A DNA stretch of 64,000 nt, from positions 1-64,000 of the forward strand of contig CANQFK010000001.1 of the NCBI GenBank assembly GCA_947598585.1, read 5' to 3'. Shown piece by piece: positions 26,184 to 34,975 of the stretch. The position numbers and the translations under genes are program-made. Each line of letters opens with the position of its first letter. Within the stretch, counting starts at the first letter, position 1. A model generated the notes under the pieces. The model made no database searches and was not told where the DNA came from. It was given only the letters and a program-made list of their open reading frames with translations. This DNA comes from an uncultured Clostridia bacterium. GTDB taxonomy: Bacteria; Bacillota; Clostridia; Christensenellales; Pumilibacteraceae.

Positions 26184-26296
26184 ATTCTAAAATCGAGTTT
26201 TAAAATAAAAGAAAATATAAAGCGTGGATCATCGAGAAAAACGATAAAGACAATTGTGCTACTTGCGAATAATTTATTTTTTAAGAGGTGGGAAAG

Positions 26297-27187
26297 TTGA
26301 TACTCGAAGTAAAAAACATTGACAAATCTTTCGGAAAAAAGCAAGTGTTGAAAGGTGTGTCGTTCGTTGCCGAGGGCGGCAAGGCGTTCGGCTTGCTTGG
26401 CAGGAACGGCGCGGGAAAAACTACCGCTATTCGTATCTTGATGAACGTGTTTCCCGCCGATAACGGCGAGGTTTTGGTCGACGGGGAACATATTGACTAC
26501 AACAAGATCAAGATAGGTTATCTTCCCGAAGAGAGAGGGCTGTATCCCAAGAAGATAATATTCGACCAACTCGTGTATTTTTCGGTGCTTAAAGGCATGA
26601 ATAAGAAAGACGCTGTAAAAGCCGTCGATCATTGGCTGGATAGGCTGGGCATGCTCGAATATCGCAACAAACGTCTTGACACCCTTTCAAAGGGAAATCA
26701 ACAAAAGATCCAACTTATAACCGCTTTGAGCCACGATCCCGATATCGTAATTCTCGACGAACCGTTTTCGGGGCTTGATCCCGTCAACGCCATGCTTTTG
26801 AAAGACGTGGTCAAGGAACAGATTGGCAAAGGTAAGATCGTTTTGTTTTCAAGTCATCAAATGAATTACATCGAAGAATTTTGCGACAGTATTGCGATCA
26901 TAAATACGGGTAGAGTAGTGCTTAAAGGCGATCTTCACGACATAAAGAGAAATTATGTTCGCGATCGCTTGGTCGTAAACACGGAAACGCCCGAAAGGAT
27001 TATGGCGGATTTCGGCGATTCGTGCAGCAAAAACGAGGACGGATCTTTGCTCATCAAACTCGACAATGTTTCCGACAAGCAAAACGTAATGAAAAAGTTG
27101 ATAGAACATTATGATATCGACGAAGTAAAGGTATTCGAGCCTTCGCTCAACGATATTTTCGTCGAGTACACTCATAAAGAAATATAG
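26297..27187 (+). CDS. ABC transporter ATP-binding protein (NatA-like exporter)
   Basis: 296 aa. Walker A GRNGAGKTT near 39-47, signature LSKGNQQKIQ (the S-K-G-N variant common in ABC-2 exporters) near 135-144, Walker B IVILDEPFSGLDP, H-loop SSHQM, and a C-terminal DUF4162-like domain that ends FVEYTHKEI. The start is taken as TTG 26297 because AGAGGTGGG lies at correct distance; an in-frame GTG at 26288 would sit on top of that site. It pairs with the following permease; substrates of such exporters include sodium ions, peptides and toxins, and none can be assigned. A structured leader precedes it. Confidence 0.88.
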   Translation: MILEVKNIDKSFGKKQVLKGVSFVAEGGKAFGLLGRNGAGKTTAIRILMNVFPADNGEVLVDGEHIDYNKIKIGYLPEERGLYPKKIIFDQLVYFSVLKGMNKKDAVKAVDHWLDRLGMLEYRNKRLDTLSKGNQQKIQLITALSHDPDIVILDEPFSGLDPVNAMLLKDVVKEQIGKGKIVLFSSHQMNYIEEFCDSIAIINTGRVVLKGDLHDIKRNYVRDRLVVNTETPERIMADFGDSCSKNEDGSLLIKLDNVSDKQNVMKKLIEHYDIDEVKVFEPSLNDIFVEYTHKEI

Positions 27188-27196
27188 GAGGCTTTA

Positions 27197-28438
27197 ATGA
27201 AACAATTCGGGAGAATATTCCAATTCGAATTAAAGGGATATCTCAAAAACAAGATCTTTGTCGGCATAACGATAATCATGATAGTCGCTATTGCCGTAGC
27301 TATGTTTATACCCAATATCATATCGCTTATCGGATCGGGTTCGAGCGACGAGCAAAAGGATCGCCCGATAATGCTCATTCATTCCGAAAGTCCCGAACTT
27401 TCTCTCCTTGTAGAGCAGTACTTCGAGGAAGCATTTGCCGATTACGATATAAAGATAACCGACGGAACGGTCGATGACGTCAAGGAACAGATCGTTTCGG
27501 GCAAAGTCGAATGCGCTTTTGTTTTGAGCAGTGCGTCGTCTTACACCTATTATGTAAACAATCTTTCGATGTATGACGTCAATGTTGGCATAGCAAATAC
27601 CGTTTTGCAAGAGGTCTATCGCGCAAACGCCATGATACAGAGCGGCTTGACGCCCGAACAAGCGGGAGAGATCATGTCCGTTCAAATCGACGGCGTAACT
27701 ACCGCGCTCGGAAAGGACCAGATGAAGAACTATTTATACACATATATAATGATCTTCGCGTTGTACATGGTGATCTTGCTTTACGGGCAAATGGTTGCCA
27801 CGAATGTAGCGACCGAAAAGAGTTCGAGGGCTATGGAATTGCTCGTAACGAGCGCCAAACCCACGAACATGATGTTCGGCAAGGTGCTTGCTTCTTGTCT
27901 TGCGGGATTTTTGCAGTTGGTGGCGATATTCGGCTCGGCATTGTTGCTTTACAACATAAACAAAAACGCTTGGAGCGGCAACGTGCTCATCGGATCGATT
28001 TTCAATATCCCCGTTGTGTTGTTTATCTATTTGCTTATTTTCTTCGTACTCGGATTTTTAATATATGCGTTTCTTTACGGAGCGATCGGATCGACGGCGT
28101 CCAAACTCGAAGATATAAATACAGCCGTCATGCCCATCACGTTCTTGTTTATAATAGCGTTTTTCGTCGTTATATTCTCCATGACGAGCGGGAACGTTGA
28201 CAATGTGGTAATGAAAATTTGTTCCTATATTCCGTTTACTTCGCCCATGGCAATGTTCACTCGTATCGCGATGAGCACCGTTCCTTGGTACGAGATAGTC
28301 ATATCCATATCGCTGTTGATAGGTTCGGTCGTGGGGATAGGTATTCTTGCGGCAAAGATCTATCGGGTAGGCGTTCTGCTTTACGGAAATCGCCCGAGAT
28401 TGGGAACGATAATAAAAAGCGTTTTCAAAAAATCTTAA
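27197..28438 (+). CDS. ABC-2 type transporter permease (NatB-like)
   Basis: 413 aa. One N-terminal membrane helix (about 19-41), an extracytoplasmic domain of about 150 residues, then five to six helices from about 180 to 400, the ABC2_membrane_3 pattern. The motif NVATEKSSRAMELLVTSAKP (residues near 204-223) is the conserved amphipathic segment of NatB-type permeases. GGAGG lies upstream, nine bases after the ATPase gene. Together they form an efflux complex. Confidence 0.88.
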   Translation: MKQFGRIFQFELKGYLKNKIFVGITIIMIVAIAVAMFIPNIISLIGSGSSDEQKDRPIMLIHSESPELSLLVEQYFEEAFADYDIKITDGTVDDVKEQIVSGKVECAFVLSSASSYTYYVNNLSMYDVNVGIANTVLQEVYRANAMIQSGLTPEQAGEIMSVQIDGVTTALGKDQMKNYLYTYIMIFALYMVILLYGQMVATNVATEKSSRAMELLVTSAKPTNMMFGKVLASCLAGFLQLVAIFGSALLLYNINKNAWSGNVLIGSIFNIPVVLFIYLLIFFVLGFLIYAFLYGAIGSTASKLEDINTAVMPITFLFIIAFFVVIFSMTSGNVDNVVMKICSYIPFTSPMAMFTRIAMSTVPWYEIVISISLLIGSVVGIGILAAKIYRVGVLLYGNRPRLGTIIKSVFKKS

Positions 28439-28454
28439 ATTACCTAATAAATAA

Positions 28455-28484
28455 AAACGGCGGAGATCGATTTCTTCGCCGTTT
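28455..28484. terminator. Bidirectional terminator hairpin
   Basis: AAACGGCG (28455-28462) pairs with CGCCGTTT (28477-28484). The minus strand continues into a T-rich run (TTATTTATT), so it best serves the converging aminotransferase-like gene, but its position after the permease suits both. Confidence 0.65.
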
Positions 28485-28515
28485 GTCGTATTTGCAGATA
28501 ATAGAGTTGCTCCGA

Positions 28516-29667
28516 TTATAGATTGGTCAAAGCAAAGATATTTGCCAGCGCGTCGGTCATGCCGTCCATTTCCGCCTCCGTAATGGTGAAGGGCGGCGTT
28601 ATCCTCAGAGTGTTGTGATCGGTCTGATCGAGCAAAAAGCCGAGGCTTTCCATTTGTCCTATGATCTTTGCCGCTTTGAGATTGGGAGTAAGTTCTATTC
28701 CCACGAGCAGACCTATTCCGCGTATCTCGGCAATAAAATTGTGCTTTTTGAGTTTGCTCAGCTTGCTCATAAGGTAATCGCCCTTTGCCTCGATCTCGGC
28801 GAGCATGCCCGAATGAAGTCTGTCAACTACCACGAGCGCGGTCGTGCAAGCAATGGACGAGATCCTGAACGCGCTTATACGATCCGACGGGGAGAGGGAG
28901 GAGGATATTTCGCCTCGCGCGAGAACGGCAGCTATGGGTATACCTGCGCCCATACCGCGAGCGATCATGACTATGTCGGGTTGAATGCCGTACTGTTCGA
29001 ATGCAAACATTGTGCCCGTTCTGCCCAAGCCTATGCCCGTTTCGTCGTAAATTATAAGCGTGTCAAGCGACTTGCACATCGCGTACGATGACAGAATAAA
29101 CTCGTACTTATTTATAACGACGCCGCGTTCGACCTCGATAGGAGAGAAGATGACCGCGCACACGTCGTTGTCGAGCGCCTTTTTCAGATCGTCGGGGTGC
29201 GGCTTGACCATGCGAATATTCAGGCTGTGGTGGCGTAAGGATTCGTATTTCGACGAAGAGGCGTCGGATACGATCAAAACGGTGCTTCGGGGATCCTTTG
29301 CTTCGGCGCGATATTTTCGTATCATCATGCCCACGATGAGGTGCGTGTCGAAAATACTGCCGCAAAAGCACGCCTTGGTAAACGCCGTCTTATCGCAAAT
29401 GCTTTGCGCAAGCAGCGAGTGCAATTCGTTATAGTAAAGGTTAGAACAGCCGATGAACTTTTCGGCTTGATCTCTTATCGCCTCGGTGAGCATAACGTCC
29501 TTGTAACCAAGACAATTTTCGCCCAGCCCGGCTACAAAATCCAGATATGCGCGATCGTTGGTGTCGTACAAATAGTTGCCTTCGCCGCGGCAAAAGCACA
29601 AGTTGTGTCGCGGATAAGTTATTATCGAAAATTTGTTGTCTATCTCTTTTATTTGCGAAAAATCCAT
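28516..29667 (-). CDS. Class-III aminotransferase homologue, probably inactive (ArgD-like pseudoenzyme)
   Basis: 383 aa, colinear with acetylornithine aminotransferase (ArgD): YLYDTNDRAYLDFVAGLG at 32-49, GLGRTGTMFAFEQYGIQPDI at 213-232 and RGIGLLVGIEL near the C-terminus. The catalytic motifs are altered: the PLP lysine position (usual A-K-A-L-G-G-G) reads A-R237-G-M-G-A-G (CGC codon, 28957-28959); the phosphate loop SGAEA reads GSIFD (103-107); FHGR reads SSKYE; DEVQ reads DETG; the YGGNP segment is lost. The frame is intact over full length, so it is kept as a protein. It may regulate or bind ligand. Argument for transamination is weak. Confidence 0.8.
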   Translation of the reverse strand: MDFSQIKEIDNKFSIITYPRHNLCFCRGEGNYLYDTNDRAYLDFVAGLGENCLGYKDVMLTEAIRDQAEKFIGCSNLYYNELHSLLAQSICDKTAFTKACFCGSIFDTHLIVGMMIRKYRAEAKDPRSTVLIVSDASSSKYESLRHHSLNIRMVKPHPDDLKKALDNDVCAVIFSPIEVERGVVINKYEFILSSYAMCKSLDTLIIYDETGIGLGRTGTMFAFEQYGIQPDIVMIARGMGAGIPIAAVLARGEISSSLSPSDRISAFRISSIACTTALVVVDRLHSGMLAEIEAKGDYLMSKLSKLKKHNFIAEIRGIGLLVGIELTPNLKAAKIIGQMESLGFLLDQTDHNTLRITPPFTITEAEMDGMTDALANIFALTNL

Positions 29668-29675
29668 ACAACTCT

Positions 29676-29704
29676 ATTATATGATATTTTGACTATTATT
29701 GCAA
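29676..29704 (-). promoter_or_regulatory. SigA-type promoter of the ArgD-like gene
   Basis: Minus strand TTGCAA (29704-29699), 17-base spacer, TATAAT (29681-29676). Only eight bases separate the -10 box from the ATG at 29667, so the mRNA should start at or one base before the start codon. Confidence 0.7.
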
Positions 29705-29806
29705 ATCAAAAAGGGCGGTAGAGTGTGAAATTTACAGTTTATTCCAATGAGTATCTTTGATATCCGTAATTTCGGGCTATTTCGCTATCGTTATTGTTAT
29801 CGCATT

Positions 29807-30643
29807 TTATTCGGCGACTTTCGAGTCGAACAGCTCTTTGTCGGGGATAGCGACGGATCCGTTTAACGTAAAGTCCTCGGTGGCTTCGCTCGTGCAGGTA
29901 ATATTGCCGAGTATGGATAGAGTATAGCGTTCCTTCGACGTGGTTCGTATGATGTTCCAATGCTCGTCCATTTCCACCGTACATTCCATTTCCAGAAATT
30001 CGGGATAGGATCTCGCGTTCGCCATAGTTTTGACTTCCGCTTTGAGATAGTCCGCGCATTCGGGGGAGAGTACGAATTTAAAGGTATAATTTTCTCCGTC
30101 CGTTCGTTCGGACGAAATGATCGTCGAATCGTTTATAGAATACTTGAAGATCTCTTTTGGCATAAGCCCGTATTTTGTGAAATAATCGTCCCGAGCGATC
30201 GCGTTTACGGAGTTGCTCCAAGTCGCGGTGATAGTGTTTTTGTCGATTTTTTTATACGAGCGCACCAGGATCTTGTCGCCGCAGAAATATTTTTGCTCTC
30301 CGACTTTCTTCAATGACGAAATGCTTATTGCCTCGCAGAAAAGCGCGCCGTTATCGTAAATGCGCTTGTTTCTGACTTGTTGTTTGACGCCGACAGCCGT
30401 GACTTCGCCTTTGTACGAACTTTCCCAAGTGGCGGCGTGATTTAAGTTGTATGCCGCAAACGACAGGTTCTCCAAAGGCGTATGATCGTCGGGAGTTCCG
30501 AAATTCGGGACTTTTGTTTCTTTTATAAGTACGACGTTTGTATCGTACGCTATGGGCTTATCGTCGTTTTCATGTTGGCAAGCGGAAAGGGCAGGCACGA
30601 TGAGCAAGACCGTAAGCAATATTCGTAAAACCGTTTTCTTCAT
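29807..30643 (-). CDS. Hypothetical lipoprotein
   Basis: 278 aa. Lipoprotein signal peptide with lipobox LSAC (Cys22), then an extracytoplasmic domain without a motif I recognise. The domain is rich in beta-type segments (for example the region around VGEQKYFCGDKILVRSYKK, residues about 118-136), somewhat like LolA/RseB-type folds, but this is not a claim. AGAAGGAAAT precedes the ATG. It has a promoter of its own upstream and lies 139 bases before the ArgD-like gene. Confidence 0.75.
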   Translation of the reverse strand: MKKTVLRILLTVLLIVPALSACQHENDDKPIAYDTNVVLIKETKVPNFGTPDDHTPLENLSFAAYNLNHAATWESSYKGEVTAVGVKQQVRNKRIYDNGALFCEAISISSLKKVGEQKYFCGDKILVRSYKKIDKNTITATWSNSVNAIARDDYFTKYGLMPKEIFKYSINDSTIISSERTDGENYTFKFVLSPECADYLKAEVKTMANARSYPEFLEMECTVEMDEHWNIIRTTSKERYTLSILGNITCTSEATEDFTLNGSVAIPDKELFDSKVAE

Positions 30644-30680
30644 ATTTCCTTCTTGATATTGGTTAAATTGTATCGCTTAT

Positions 30681-30708
30681 ATTATACCATATCTTAATGC
30701 GAAAACAA
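30681..30708 (-). promoter_or_regulatory. Promoter of the lipoprotein gene
   Basis: Minus strand TTGTTT (30708-30703), 16-base spacer, TATAAT (30686-30681). It transcribes towards the lipoprotein start at 30643, leader about 30 bases. Confidence 0.6.
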
Positions 30709-30855
30709 ATCAAAAATGAATAAAATCGGTTAAAATTTGCTTTTATGACCAAAAAAACGGCGTATAGTCCTATTTGCGCGTACGATATAAGCCGATTTTT
30801 CCGTTTAGCAAGAGAGAATTTTCCAAATAAGGAAATGCGAGTTCGCTTTTATCGC

Positions 30856-30884
30856 TTGTAATATTCTTCAAAATGTGGTAATAT
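30856..30884 (+). promoter_or_regulatory. SigA-type promoter of the degenerate ABC ATPase gene
   Basis: TTGTAA (30856-30861), 17-base spacer, TAATAT (30879-30884). Six bases separate the -10 box from the ATG at 30891 and no Shine-Dalgarno exists, so the message is predicted to be leaderless. Confidence 0.65.
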
Positions 30885-30890
30885 AAAGCC

Positions 30891-31562
30891 ATGTTGGAAT
30901 TAAAGCGCGTTAAAGTGGATTTTTACGGAAACAAGACCGTTCTCGATATAAATTTCGAGCCGGGCATAACGCTTATTCTCGGCGAAACGGGCTCGCTTAA
31001 AACCACTATATTGAGAGTGGTGGGGGGAATAAAGGAAATAGAGGACGGCGAATTGATACTCGGCGGCAAAAATATAGAAGAACTTTCGCCCAAAGAGAGG
31101 AACATGTCCCTTGTAGCCGCGGAAACGCTTCCTACGGGAGGAAAAACGGACAGAATGCTCATACGTCCACTTGTTATGCGTGGCATAAACAAGAAAGAGG
31201 CGCTGATACAGGCGCATACGGCCGCCGAAAAATACGCTTTGGATCTTAATAAAAAGATAAAGGACCTTACCGCAAGAGAGCGTTTGTCCTTTGTTGCCGC
31301 AAGACTTATGTTGCGACAGACCGAAGTCACTATGTTCGATGAGCCGTATCATTTGTTCGATGACGACAGAGCCGTTACGGATATGATAAGGAGCCGCGGC
31401 GGGTACGTTTTGGTCACTTCGTGCGACGGCTCCGATCTCGGAAAGTTGGCGCCCGACTATGTTGTGCTGTTGAGAAGAGGCGAGATCTTGCAACAAGGCA
31501 AGACGAGCGAAGTGCTGCGTTCTCCCAAGGGCAAATATGTCGAAATGTTTTTGAATATTTAA
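30891..31562 (+). CDS. Degenerate ABC-type ATPase, stand-alone
   Basis: 223 aa, ABC ATPase fold of the MalK/PotA type without the C-terminal TOBE part. Walker A is kept (GETGSLKTT, 31-39) and Walker B has FDEP (149-152). The Q-loop glutamine is absent (SLVAAETLP, 73-81), the signature LSGGQ reads LTARE (126-130), and the switch histidine of the H-loop is Ser177 (VTSCD). Such changes should abolish normal transport-coupled hydrolysis. No permease is adjacent. The start is right by family alignment (MLELKRVKV) although no ribosome binding site exists. It may be a nucleotide-binding regulator or on its way to loss. Confidence 0.75.
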   Translation: MLELKRVKVDFYGNKTVLDINFEPGITLILGETGSLKTTILRVVGGIKEIEDGELILGGKNIEELSPKERNMSLVAAETLPTGGKTDRMLIRPLVMRGINKKEALIQAHTAAEKYALDLNKKIKDLTARERLSFVAARLMLRQTEVTMFDEPYHLFDDDRAVTDMIRSRGGYVLVTSCDGSDLGKLAPDYVVLLRRGEILQQGKTSEVLRSPKGKYVEMFLNI

Positions 31563-31563
31563 A

Positions 31564-31590
31564 GCCGCGCTCCTAATAAGGTAACGCGGC
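31564..31590. terminator. Hairpin between convergent genes
   Basis: GCCGCG (31564-31569) pairs with CGCGGC (31585-31590), with an inner CCTAATAAGG palindrome extending the stem. T-runs on either strand are short, so termination efficiency is uncertain. Confidence 0.4.
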
Positions 31591-31598
31591 AAAAACGA

Positions 31599-32024
31599 TC
31601 ATATTTTCATTTGTTGTTCGCAGGCGGTAAACTTCTTTTTTGCCTGATTGATCTTCGGCATGGGCGCGCTGTCGGTAGGATACAGACCGCGTTCCTGCAT
31701 ATAAAGGAAGGCGTCGAATTGATCTTCCGCGCATTCGCTTAGCTGGTTGTCGATAAGATCTCTCAACTTGGGACACGATGCTTCGCAAAGCGCGGTGCCG
31801 TATAGTTTTATAAGCGATTTCTGCGAACCGAGAACGTCGGAAATTATTTCCTTATCGGTAAGTTTGCACACGTCCTGAGCGAATTCGGTAGAACGGTTGC
31901 AGTTGCAATTGCAATTCTTTTTCGGCTTGGACGATGATCCCGTGTTCTGAGTTTTGGTATTGAAGTCTGTGATAGCGGTAGTGTTCTTTTGTTGAACGTT
32001 TCTTTTGGTTTGTGTACTCGGCAT
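31599..32024 (-). CDS. Spore coat protein, CotF-like
   Basis: 141 aa. Residues 1-48 are a low-complexity Thr/Asn/Lys/Gln-rich tail ending in a CNCNCN run; residues 50-115 form the Coat_F four-helix-like domain (F-A-Q-D-V-C-K-L-T-D-K-E-I-I-S-D-V-L-G-S-Q-K type pattern, then a helix with LRDLIDNQLSECAEDQFDAF). Related proteins are built into the spore coat. GGAGG lies 8-10 bases before the ATG. It is the second gene after the 61-aa coat-like protein, same operon. Confidence 0.8.
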   Translation of the reverse strand: MPSTQTKRNVQQKNTTAITDFNTKTQNTGSSSKPKKNCNCNCNRSTEFAQDVCKLTDKEIISDVLGSQKSLIKLYGTALCEASCPKLRDLIDNQLSECAEDQFDAFLYMQERGLYPTDSAPMPKINQAKKKFTACEQQMKI

Positions 32025-32043
32025 AATTATGAACCTCCTTTTA

Positions 32044-32229
32044 TTATGCGTTGGAGTTGAGGTAACTCAACAGCGCCTCGAATCTCACTCTGTGATTGTT
32101 GGCATACGTCCCGAGCTTTTCTTTGAGCGTGGGATCCTGACATTCCGAAACGTAGTTGCAGCATTTGCGATAGGCAAGATTTTCGCTGTCGAGAAGTTCG
32201 GAAATTTCCTGCAAATTTTTACTTGTCAT
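32044..32229 (-). CDS. Small helical spore coat-associated protein, 61 aa
   Basis: 61 aa, all helical, with a pattern (NLQEISELLDSENLAYRKC followed by a second helix LKEKLGTYANNHRVRFEAL) that resembles the short partners found next to CotF-like genes. GGAGG is located well before the start, and the CotF-like gene follows after 19 bases. It carries a probable sporulation promoter. Family membership is inferred from position and helix pattern. Confidence 0.65.
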   Translation of the reverse strand: MTSKNLQEISELLDSENLAYRKCCNYVSECQDPTLKEKLGTYANNHRVRFEALLSYLNSNA

Positions 32230-32259
32230 TTCAATGACCTCCGTTTATTTTTATAAACC

Positions 32260-32289
32260 AAGTATTTGCATTTGCAAAATTTTTATTCA
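32260..32289 (-). promoter_or_regulatory. Candidate forespore (SigF/SigG-like) promoter of the coat genes
   Basis: Minus strand TGAATA (32289-32284), 17-base spacer, AATACTT (32266-32260). The -35 is close to the SigG/SigF pattern; the -10 (usual CATACTA) has two differences. It overlaps the recX promoter on the other strand. Confidence 0.3.
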
Positions 32290-32300
32290 TGAGTTATACT
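32272..32300 (+). promoter_or_regulatory. SigA-type promoter of recX operon
   Basis: TTGCAA (32272-32277), 17-base spacer, TATACT (32295-32300). Transcription should start near 32307, giving a 22-base leader to the recX ATG at 32329. Confidence 0.7.
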
Positions 32301-32937: not shown

Positions 32938-33797
32938 AAGGCGTAAAAATAGGTAACGTCAACGACGACTTTACGGGCGTTACCGTCATCGTGTTCGAGG
33001 ACGGTTGCGTTTGCGGTTGCGATGTTCGCGGAGGCGCGCCGGGCACGCGCGAAACGGCTTTGCTCGGCAGCGACAAAGCCAACGAGCATGTGGACGCGAT
33101 AGCTCTTTGCGGCGGCTCGGCATACGGACTTGCAGCGGCGTGTGGAGTTATGAACGCATTAAAGGAGAAAGGAAAGGGCGTAAAAGTGCTCGATAAGATA
33201 GTGCCCATAGTCCCGTCTGCCGTAATTTACGACCTCAACGATCGCGAATATCATTTCCCGTCCGAAAAAATGGGGTATGACGCTGTCCAAAAAGCGACCG
33301 ACATGTGGGAACGCGGCAAGGTGGGCGCGGGCAAAGGCGCTACCGTGGGAAAGATCCTCGGGATCGATCATTGTTCGCGATCGGGTCTTGGTATAGGCAG
33401 AGCGGTCGTTGACGGAGCCGAAGTTGTCGCGATCATGGTGGTGAACGCGTTCGGGGACGTGCGAAAGGACGGAAAGATCATTGCGGGCGCAAAATATAAC
33501 GACGCTTTTGTCGATACGCTCGAACTTCTCGGCTCGATAAGATCGGACGCAAAAGGGGCGAATACGACCATAGGCTGCGTAATTACCGACGCAAAATTGA
33601 CCAAGGTGCAGACCAACAAACTTGCCTCTGTCTCTCACAACGGACTTGCGAAAACGATCTTTCCCGTTCATACCGATCTTGACGGGGATACGATCTTTTG
33701 CGCGTCGGTGGGCGACAAAAACGTCGATATGATAAAATTGCAGGTGGCTTGCGTCAAGGCTGTCGAAGCGGCTGTTTGGGACGCCGTAACGTTATGA
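32922..33797 (+). CDS. P1 family peptidase (DmpA/BapA-type aminopeptidase)
   Basis: 291 aa. The self-processing Ntn-like fold of S58 peptidases is indicated by L-C-G-G-S-A-Y-G-L at about 64-72, GKGATVGKILG near 138-148, and the cleavage/nucleophile site GANTTIGCV near 208-216, where the second Thr is the likely new N-terminal nucleophile. Substrates of the family include D-amino acid amides, beta-peptides and N-terminal residues. AGGAGAG precedes the start inside recX; the ATGA overlap with the next gene implies coupling. Confidence 0.88.
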   Translation: MERLIKGVKIGNVNDDFTGVTVIVFEDGCVCGCDVRGGAPGTRETALLGSDKANEHVDAIALCGGSAYGLAAACGVMNALKEKGKGVKVLDKIVPIVPSAVIYDLNDREYHFPSEKMGYDAVQKATDMWERGKVGAGKGATVGKILGIDHCSRSGLGIGRAVVDGAEVVAIMVVNAFGDVRKDGKIIAGAKYNDAFVDTLELLGSIRSDAKGANTTIGCVITDAKLTKVQTNKLASVSHNGLAKTIFPVHTDLDGDTIFCASVGDKNVDMIKLQVACVKAVEAAVWDAVTL

Positions 33798-34975
33798 TAG
33801 GCGCGGATATCGTAGAGATCAGACGGATCGAAGAGGCGATAAAGAGCGAGCGCTTTTTGCAAAGAGTTTTTACTCGGAGCGAACGCGATTACGCCCTTTC
33901 CAAAGGTAACAAGGCTCAGACATTGGCGGGGGTATTTGCCGCAAAGGAAGCCGTCGCAAAACTTTCGGGCAAGGGATTGAGAGGCTATATTTTTACGGAT
34001 ATAGAGATCGCGCATACCGTATCGGGCGCTCCGTATGTGATCATGTCAGACAAAGTCAGGGGACTTTTTGACGGAGAGATAAGCGTAAGCATATCGCATG
34101 AAAAGGATTATGCTTTCGCCGTTGCAAGTTATGAGCCTTGCGAGTTTTCTCCCGTTCTTCCCGGAAAGGAGATATGCGATGAGGACTTAAAACTCTTGCC
34201 GCGGAAGAGATCTACGCATAAGGGCGATTACGGCAGAGTGTACGTTATAGGCGGCAGCCCCAAAATGATAGGAGCGCCACTCATATGCGCAGAGGCGGCG
34301 GTGCGGTCGGGCGCGGGACTTACGACGCTTTGCGTGCCCGCTTCGTTGCTTTTCGCTTATCAAAGCAGGGTAAAGGAGATCATGCTAAAAGGTCTGCCCG
34401 ACGCGAACGGAAAATTGATCTTCGACGAAACCGCGATGAATGAAATTTGCGATAAAGCTGACGCCATAGTTATCGGAATGGGACTTGGAGCAAATGCCGA
34501 ACTGAGTTCTGTATTGAAATATTTGCTTAATAACTTCACAGGGACCCTTGTATGCGACGCGGACGCGATAAACGCTTTGGCAAAAGAACCCGACCTGTTC
34601 GCGATCGAGAGAAAGGGCGTCAAACTTATCCTTACTCCTCATGTCGGAGAGTTCAAAAGACTTGCTAACGCGTTAAATATCAATTCCGTATCGGATATCG
34701 CGCTCGCAACGGACGCGGTCGTTGCGTGCAAAAGCGCATATACCTTAGTCACCGACGGTGTGACCGAATACAAAATAACTTCGGGTTGCGCGGCCATGGC
34801 AAAGGGCGGGAGCGGCGATACTCTTGCGGGGATAATAGCGGCATATTCGTGCAGGACCGTCCCGCTCGAAGCTACCGCTCTTGCATGTCATTACTTCGGA
34901 AGGTGCGGCGAAAGGGCTGCTGTGATAAAAGGTGAGAATGCGGTTACGGCGTCGGATATAATCGATATTTTATGA
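33794..34975 (+). CDS. Fusion of holo-ACP synthase (AcpS) and ADP/ATP-dependent NAD(P)H-hydrate dehydratase (NnrD)
   Basis: 393 aa. Residues 1-118 are AcpS: IGADIVEIRRIE at 2-13, FAAKEAVAKLSGKG near 47-60, and SISHEKDYAFAVA near 97-109; this enzyme attaches 4'-phosphopantetheine to acyl carrier protein. Residues about 130-393 are a ribokinase-like NnrD: HKGDYGRVYVIGGSP, a V-C-D-A-D-A-I-N-A-L segment, L-T-P-H-V-G-E-F and KGGSGDTLAG. It repairs hydrated NAD(P)H. The NnrE epimerase domain usually fused to NnrD is absent. In Firmicutes acpS and nnr genes are often neighbours; here they are one frame. The start overlaps the peptidase stop. Confidence 0.88.
   Translation: MIGADIVEIRRIEEAIKSERFLQRVFTRSERDYALSKGNKAQTLAGVFAAKEAVAKLSGKGLRGYIFTDIEIAHTVSGAPYVIMSDKVRGLFDGEISVSISHEKDYAFAVASYEPCEFSPVLPGKEICDEDLKLLPRKRSTHKGDYGRVYVIGGSPKMIGAPLICAEAAVRSGAGLTTLCVPASLLFAYQSRVKEIMLKGLPDANGKLIFDETAMNEICDKADAIVIGMGLGANAELSSVLKYLLNNFTGTLVCDADAINALAKEPDLFAIERKGVKLILTPHVGEFKRLANALNINSVSDIALATDAVVACKSAYTLVTDGVTEYKITSGCAAMAKGGSGDTLAGIIAAYSCRTVPLEATALACHYFGRCGERAAVIKGENAVTASDIIDIL

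Follow-up and report, generated by a model that had tools for sequence, protein, structure and literature searches.

In heterodimeric ABC exporters, degenerate nucleotide-binding sites sit inside the transporter and are paired with an active site. The multitask ATPase MsmX is described as serving several sugar importers (PMC7658222), and in E. coli the NBD protein MalK and the PLP-fold protein MalY are both described as restraining MalT by binding it (PMC10427625). Our search of the open-access literature gave no title or abstract on a stand-alone degenerate NBD of the MsmX type. Here we analyse a gene for such a protein in 64,000 nucleotides of DNA from an uncultured Clostridia bacterium of the Pumilibacteraceae (the window; contig CANQFK010000001.1, positions 1 to 64,000), together with its ArgD-like neighbour. 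With moderate confidence we suggest that a sugar-importer ATPase became a selected non-catalytic binding protein after the loss of its clients, and that the ArgD-like neighbour is a second such protein.

The window's genus of gut bacteria (g1) is represented by eight genomes of 1.1-1.6 Mb, the window's own included; G001 and G002 are near duplicates, which makes the eight genus rows about seven independent ones. The canonical reference set comprises ten ATPases, eight of which adjoin or lie near arg genes, with the other two (G008, G061) placed by the tree. Names of arg genes were given by eye from the sequences, and ArgD and ArgB also by homology searches.

Fold and motifs of the stand-alone ATPase

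The gene and the positions of its former motifs are the following.

30891..31562, forward strand: pseudo-NBD, a stand-alone ABC ATPase fold of 223 aa without TOBE (ORF, Pfam, AlphaFold, orthologues)
30981..31007, forward strand: altered Walker A, residues 31-39 (GETGSLKTT), with Leu36 (30996-30998) instead of Gly before Lys37 (motif table)
31101..31133, forward strand: former Q-loop, residues 71-81 (NMSLVAAETLP), with Ala77 at the Gln position (alignment with ten canonical relatives)
31266..31280, forward strand: former LSGGQ signature, residues 126-130 (LTARE) (alignment with canonical relatives)
31326..31346, forward strand: Walker B, residues 146-152 (VTMFDEP), with D150-E151 kept, followed by the changed D-loop H154-L-F-D157 (alignment)
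31422..31424, forward strand: Cys178 codon at the switch histidine position (Cys in seven of the eight orthologues, Ser in one)

Pfam recognises ABC_tran in the protein at 29 bits (cut-off 25), which assigns it to the NBD fold, and finds neither TOBE nor OB_MalK. NCBIfam and PDB sequence searches lead to UgpC, MalK, PotA and AlgS-type ATPases, with scores that fall far short of the NCBIfam cut-offs. The AlphaFold (AF2) model has a pLDDT of 93, and Foldseek searches with it place PotA, FbpC and MalK at the top, with B. subtilis MsmX also among the matches.

In all eight genus orthologues the canonical key residues of the Q-loop (Gln), the LSGGQ signature, the H-loop (His) and the D-loop are gone, and the Walker B Asp and the catalytic Glu (D150-E151) are present. 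The last Gly of GxxxxGK in Walker A is replaced by Leu, Phe or Tyr in 8/8, with Lys37 kept in each, and none of these proteins carries the pattern GxxGxGK(S/T). The Q-loop region, which we take to be the docking site for a permease, has been shortened, and its canonical residues are replaced by others.

The sequence-only reading had described a stand-alone ABC ATPase that lacks the Q-loop, the LSGGQ signature, the switch histidine and TOBE, and the ORF, Pfam, the fold, the alignment against the ten canonical relatives and the orthologues in 8/8 genomes bear this out. The alignment also places the lost signature and the lost Q-loop where they had been proposed, at LTARE (126-130) and within SLVAAE. 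The H-loop is indeed lost, but its position corresponds to Cys178 and not to the preceding Ser177 that had been named. As for the two Walker motifs said to be retained, Walker B stands and Walker A does not, the Lys being kept and the Gly before it replaced throughout the genus.

The bulky residue in place of the P-loop Gly in 8/8 makes tight ATP binding doubtful, despite the kept Lys37 and D150-E151, and the protein's earlier description as ATP-binding is weakened to the same degree. We take G17 of RhoA to be the same P-loop position as the Gly before Lys37. The RhoA mutant G17A is described as a nucleotide-free protein (PMC9954420). The window ATPase thus probably neither binds ATP tightly, nor forms the ATP-sandwich dimer, nor drives transport. 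The kept Lys37 and D150-E151 count against our preferred explanation, because residual nucleotide binding would account for them. They would be expected of a non-hydrolysing nucleotide sensor, close to what the sequence-only reading had in mind, in which ATP or ADP bound via these residues signals the energy state to a partner. K37, D150 and E151 are invariant in the genus and the NBD fold is predicted to be intact, yet the replaced Gly and the lost Q-loop and H-loop residues oppose a sensor, and so does genus g7, where the Walker A lysine is lost in 3 of the 12 rows read, so that nucleotide binding is not the property conserved across the wider group. We regard such a sensor as unlikely.

Descent, client loss and selection

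PotA served as the outgroup of the ATPase tree, which was made after three unrelated ABC proteins (G065_514, G000_299, G056_328) had been left out; the rows read exclude the partial matches of G038, G044, G068 and G069, and the search of the family genomes gave no match at subfamily level in G037. The degenerate copies form one group (98/84) on long branches, and the canonical copies lie close together on short ones. The long branches mean that the grouping of the degenerate copies may be partly an artefact of long-branch attraction. A comparison with PotA- and MalK-type ATPases had been proposed beforehand; in it the window ATPase groups with the arg-linked MsmX-type ATPases and not with PotA.

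The gene neighbourhood points the same way. An ATPase of this lineage, canonical or degenerate, lies beside or within ~10 kb of argC-argB-argD-argF in g4, g6, g7, g8, g9 and g16, and it adjoins argD in g5, g11 and one g12 genome. Tree and arg-linked position together indicate that the window ATPase shares common descent with the multitask ATPases of the MsmX/MalK type, with a certainty limited by the long branches.

Forms of different degradation survive along this lineage. The catalytic motifs are intact in 10/10 canonical copies, and the ATPase of G031 is fully canonical, with 691 aa and OB_MalK and TOBE domains. The copies of g6 (G033) and g16 (G067) are intermediates, in which OB_MalK and TOBE_2 are kept and the catalytic motifs are lost. 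In g7 the ATPase has ~320 aa, and its C-terminal extension aligns with the TOBE region, which Pfam did not recognise in either of two members that were scanned. The ATPases of g1 and g15 no longer have the extension. G154, which belongs to another family of the same order, holds one more degenerate copy, also lacking TOBE.

Some further observations concern these loci. Downstream of the degenerate ATPase gene, and on its strand, the g7 loci L044 to L051 carry genes for a glycogen branching enzyme and a glycogen synthase (named by eye), and the arg genes start divergently; a GlgB homologue occurs in 7/8 genus genomes, away from the ATPase locus. At the arg locus of g4, g6 and g8 (L127, L128, L132, L133) the ATPase gene has as its neighbour a gene judged by eye to encode a zinc-ribbon membrane protein. 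One MAG, G045, holds two copies of the ATPase-arg region (L050, L051) and possibly represents two strains binned together.

Wider searches returned few relatives. In the order, 8 of 347 genomes match at E<=1e-52; seven belong to the window's family, and the eighth is G154. In the class, 4 of 391 genomes besides the window genome match at E<=1e-50; three of these matches are canonical ATPases and one is that of G154, so that in the class this threshold is close to the background of canonical ATPases. Searches of genome contigs with the ATPase found no relative, and those with the ArgD-like alignment found seven loci of the congeners and one distant match in Bacteroidales.

Client importers were sought with a MalG-type permease query (E<=1e-12) in 74 family genomes, 43 of which gave a match. 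At this threshold none was found in the 31 genomes of g1, g3, g6, g7, g10, g15 and g16, all eight genus genomes among them. The 25 genomes in which a degenerate copy was read (8 of g1, 2 of g6, 11 of g7, 1 of g10, 2 of g15 and 1 of g16) all fall within these 31, and the genomes read with a canonical lineage copy (10/10) fall within the permease-bearing 43; the genomes being related, this match reflects one or few evolutionary events, not 35 independent ones. The pattern fits a multitask ATPase that has lost its clients.

No permease gene lies beside the ATPase in any of the eight genus genomes, which agrees with the sequence-only reading, and the homologues with permease neighbours that it had named as counter-evidence do not occur in the genus. 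Its proposal of a regulator of another transporter gains no positive support, given the changed and shortened Q-loop region and the missing MalG-type permeases. A related possibility is an accessory or regulatory NBD of a transporter that remains, such as Opp, Pot or the ABC-2-like system at 26288-28438 (names by eye). The NBD fold would suit this role, and the genome does hold other ABC ATPases and BPD-type permeases; those other ATPase genes, however, are available to the remaining transporters, and the altered docking region and the missing neighbouring permease speak against it as well. We give this possibility very little weight.

Orthologues of the ATPase occur in 8/8 genus genomes, the other seven at 49-58% identity to the window's and all without internal stops, and hence the motif losses are lineage-wide and not due to sequencing error. 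In the closest pair, G001 and G002, 14 differences are nonsynonymous and 29 synonymous (dN/dS 0.126), a departure from neutrality with p=6e-10; the nearby RecX gives a similar dN/dS of 0.116 in the same pair. The ATPase gene is under purifying selection. The eight orthologues share 37 invariant positions with a residue unlike the conserved canonical one, where conserved means the same residue in at least 9 of the 10 canonical copies; 16 other invariant positions keep the canonical residue, and three fall where the canonical copies vary. G45, K48, P81, P93, H154, S177, G180, D182 and P188 are among the newly invariant residues. This dN/dS and the 37 non-ancestral invariant positions point to a new constraint and not to decay. 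A decaying relic, drifting toward loss after its clients were lost, would explain why the ATPase evolves faster than the canonical copies, why the client permeases are lost and why the genomes are small. Nevertheless, it is already contradicted by the departure from neutrality at a RecX-like rate, and the open frame with an orthologue in every genus genome, the new invariant positions and the retained promoter-like sequence oppose it too; we therefore hold it to be highly improbable.

The ArgD-like neighbour and the layout of the locus

The second protein is encoded on the opposite strand, and the putative promoters of both genes lie close to their start codons.

28516..29667, reverse strand: ArgD-like pseudo-aminotransferase, 383 aa (Pfam Aminotran_3, 203 bits)
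28957..28959, reverse strand: Arg237 codon where ArgD has the codon of the PLP lysine (aligned to ArgD relatives and 2ord)
29338..29361, reverse strand: GSIFDTHL in place of the NSGAEANE loop (alignment)
29676..29704, reverse strand: putative leaderless ArgD-like promoter, TTGCAA - 17 nt - TATAAT, 8 nt before ATG (inferred)
29725..29733, reverse strand: AAATTTCAC upstream of the ArgD-like promoter (exact in 4/8 orthologues, one mismatch in 2/8, not seen in 2/8)
30856..30884, forward strand: putative leaderless or almost leaderless ATPase promoter, TTGTAA - 17 nt - TAATAT, 6 nt before ATG (window sequence and orthologues)

In all eight genus ArgD-like proteins the Schiff-base lysine of PLP is replaced by Arg237, and the GAEAN, HGRT and TTFGG motifs are absent, the first belonging to the NSGAEANE loop, presumably the PLP phosphate-binding loop. 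By contrast, among 29 arg-locus ArgD proteins of other genera the Lys and HGRT are present in 29/29 and GAEAN in 28/29, with GAEAV in G067, whose row is not part of the ArgD tree. Judged on these residues, the ArgD-like gene is a pseudoenzyme gene. Its selection is stronger than that of the ATPase, with 5 nonsynonymous and 63 synonymous differences between G001 and G002 (dN/dS 0.019, p=4e-35). ArgB, sought by homology, is present in 51/74 family genomes and absent from g10, g15 and 8/8 genus genomes, which accordingly lack the arginine pathway as judged on ArgB. The ArgD-like gene is a relic argD of a lost arginine operon. In G057 (g10) the ArgD-like protein keeps the lysine with the other motifs lost, and in G066 (g15) it has Arg at the lysine position and keeps part of GAEAN; the two patterns suggest more than one step, or more than one lineage, in the loss of the PLP site.

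The two pseudoenzyme genes are direct divergent neighbours in four of the eight genus genomes; the remaining four, the window's among them, have a lipoprotein gene in between, so that there the pair shares no promoter region. In G057 and G066 the pair is adjacent. In the window this putative lipoprotein (29807-30643, reverse strand) has no Pfam match, and its relatives vary fivefold in length (G006 280 aa, G004 1434 aa, G007 1421 aa).

Leaderless starts are likely for both genes, to judge from the spacing of their promoter-like boxes. A perfect TATAAT precedes the ATG of the ArgD-like gene by 6-8 nt in 8/8 genus genomes, by 6 nt in G057 and by 9 nt in G066. A -10-like box lies 6-9 nt before the ATG of the ATPase in 6/8 by the strict rule; the window and G004 have a weaker one, TAATAT. 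As a control, the same box arrangement occurs at 2 of 38 other starts in the window. The expectation of two adjacent pseudoenzymes, both predicted to be leaderless, is thereby supported and extends across the genus. At two other window starts, 35739 (forward) and 38400 (reverse), a -10-like box lies 7 nt before ATG, and leaderless genes may therefore occur elsewhere in the genome.

Several other features of the locus were considered. As a regulon motif AAATTTCAC was rejected, its one match in the window being the chance expectation. A role in a defence system was likewise dismissed, PADLOC giving only weak matches to generic ATPase models, and no structured RNA above the gathering score was found at 28300-32300. 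At 33698-34975 (forward strand) one frame appears by eye to fuse an AcpS-like and an NnrD-like protein.

The proximity of the two genes raises the possibility of an obligate hetero-complex of both pseudoenzymes, a particle without catalysis that would stem from the arg locus. The pair being adjacent or one gene apart throughout the genus is in its favour, as is the finding that among 23 ArgB-less family genomes an ArgD homologue occurs in 10 of the 12 with a degenerate ATPase and in 3 of the 11 others (Fisher p=0.012, kinship ignored). On the other hand, a mirror-tree test of the ATPase against the ArgD-like protein gave no co-evolution signal beyond that of two neighbouring genes (partial r=0.02), G065 has the ATPase with no ArgD homologue found, and in g7 a canonical ArgD accompanies the degenerate ATPase. 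Such an obligate complex appears distinctly unlikely to us.

Proposed route to non-catalytic binding and comparison with known systems

The route to two selected binding proteins, which we prefer, can be outlined as follows. It would have started with a multitask ATPase of the MsmX type near the arginine operon, serving sugar importers. With the loss of these client importers the ATPase would have been freed from ATP hydrolysis and permease docking. Selection would then have kept only a non-catalytic protein-binding role, which may be the sequestering of a regulator or the scaffolding of a complex. The ArgD-like protein would have been retained beside the ATPase as the second non-catalytic binding protein.

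A more specific version, which we put forward as speculative and rather unlikely, is a catalysis-free control module, where the nucleotide-free NBD and the PLP-free aminotransferase jointly restrain a target, e.g. a transcription factor. It would mean that two metabolic proteins from an arg-linked locus were stripped of their chemistry after pathway loss, with the intermediates visible in sister genera.

Pseudoenzymes are usually met as finished products, whereas here canonical, part-degraded and final short forms survive in sister genera. The forms are tied to one gene neighbourhood, and the change accompanies the loss of client transporters. The surviving series together with the client loss thus makes it testable which non-catalytic role of a transport ATPase outlives transport. 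If the preferred reading is true, the stand-alone nucleotide-free NBD would be a clean case of the ABC fold used only for binding.

Degenerate sites of heterodimeric ABC exporters are described as having likewise lost NBD catalytic motifs (PMC7756269); unlike them, the window NBD stands alone. With the acetylornithine aminotransferase ArgD the ArgD-like protein shares the fold (2ord, TM 0.86) and 39-42% identity to one canonical ArgD of the family, and it differs in the Arg in place of the PLP lysine, in the missing GAEAN, HGRT and TTFGG motifs and in the loss of ArgB from the genome.

The window ATPase shares the NBD fold and the lineage of B. subtilis MsmX and the MsmK/UgpC-type CUT1 ATPases, and its gene likewise lies apart from permeases, as expected from the description of an ATPase that serves several importers (PMC7658222). 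It differs from them in lacking the Q-loop, LSGGQ, H-loop, D-loop, TOBE and P-loop Gly, and its genome has no match to a client-type permease. The likeness to MalK and MalY lies in the pairing of an ABC ATPase with a PLP-fold protein, both acting through the binding of a regulator, which for the window pair we propose by analogy; MalK and MalY, however, are enzymes that still bind their cofactors. They are thus not a family assignment for the window pair but, as an analogy, a precedent for its mechanism.
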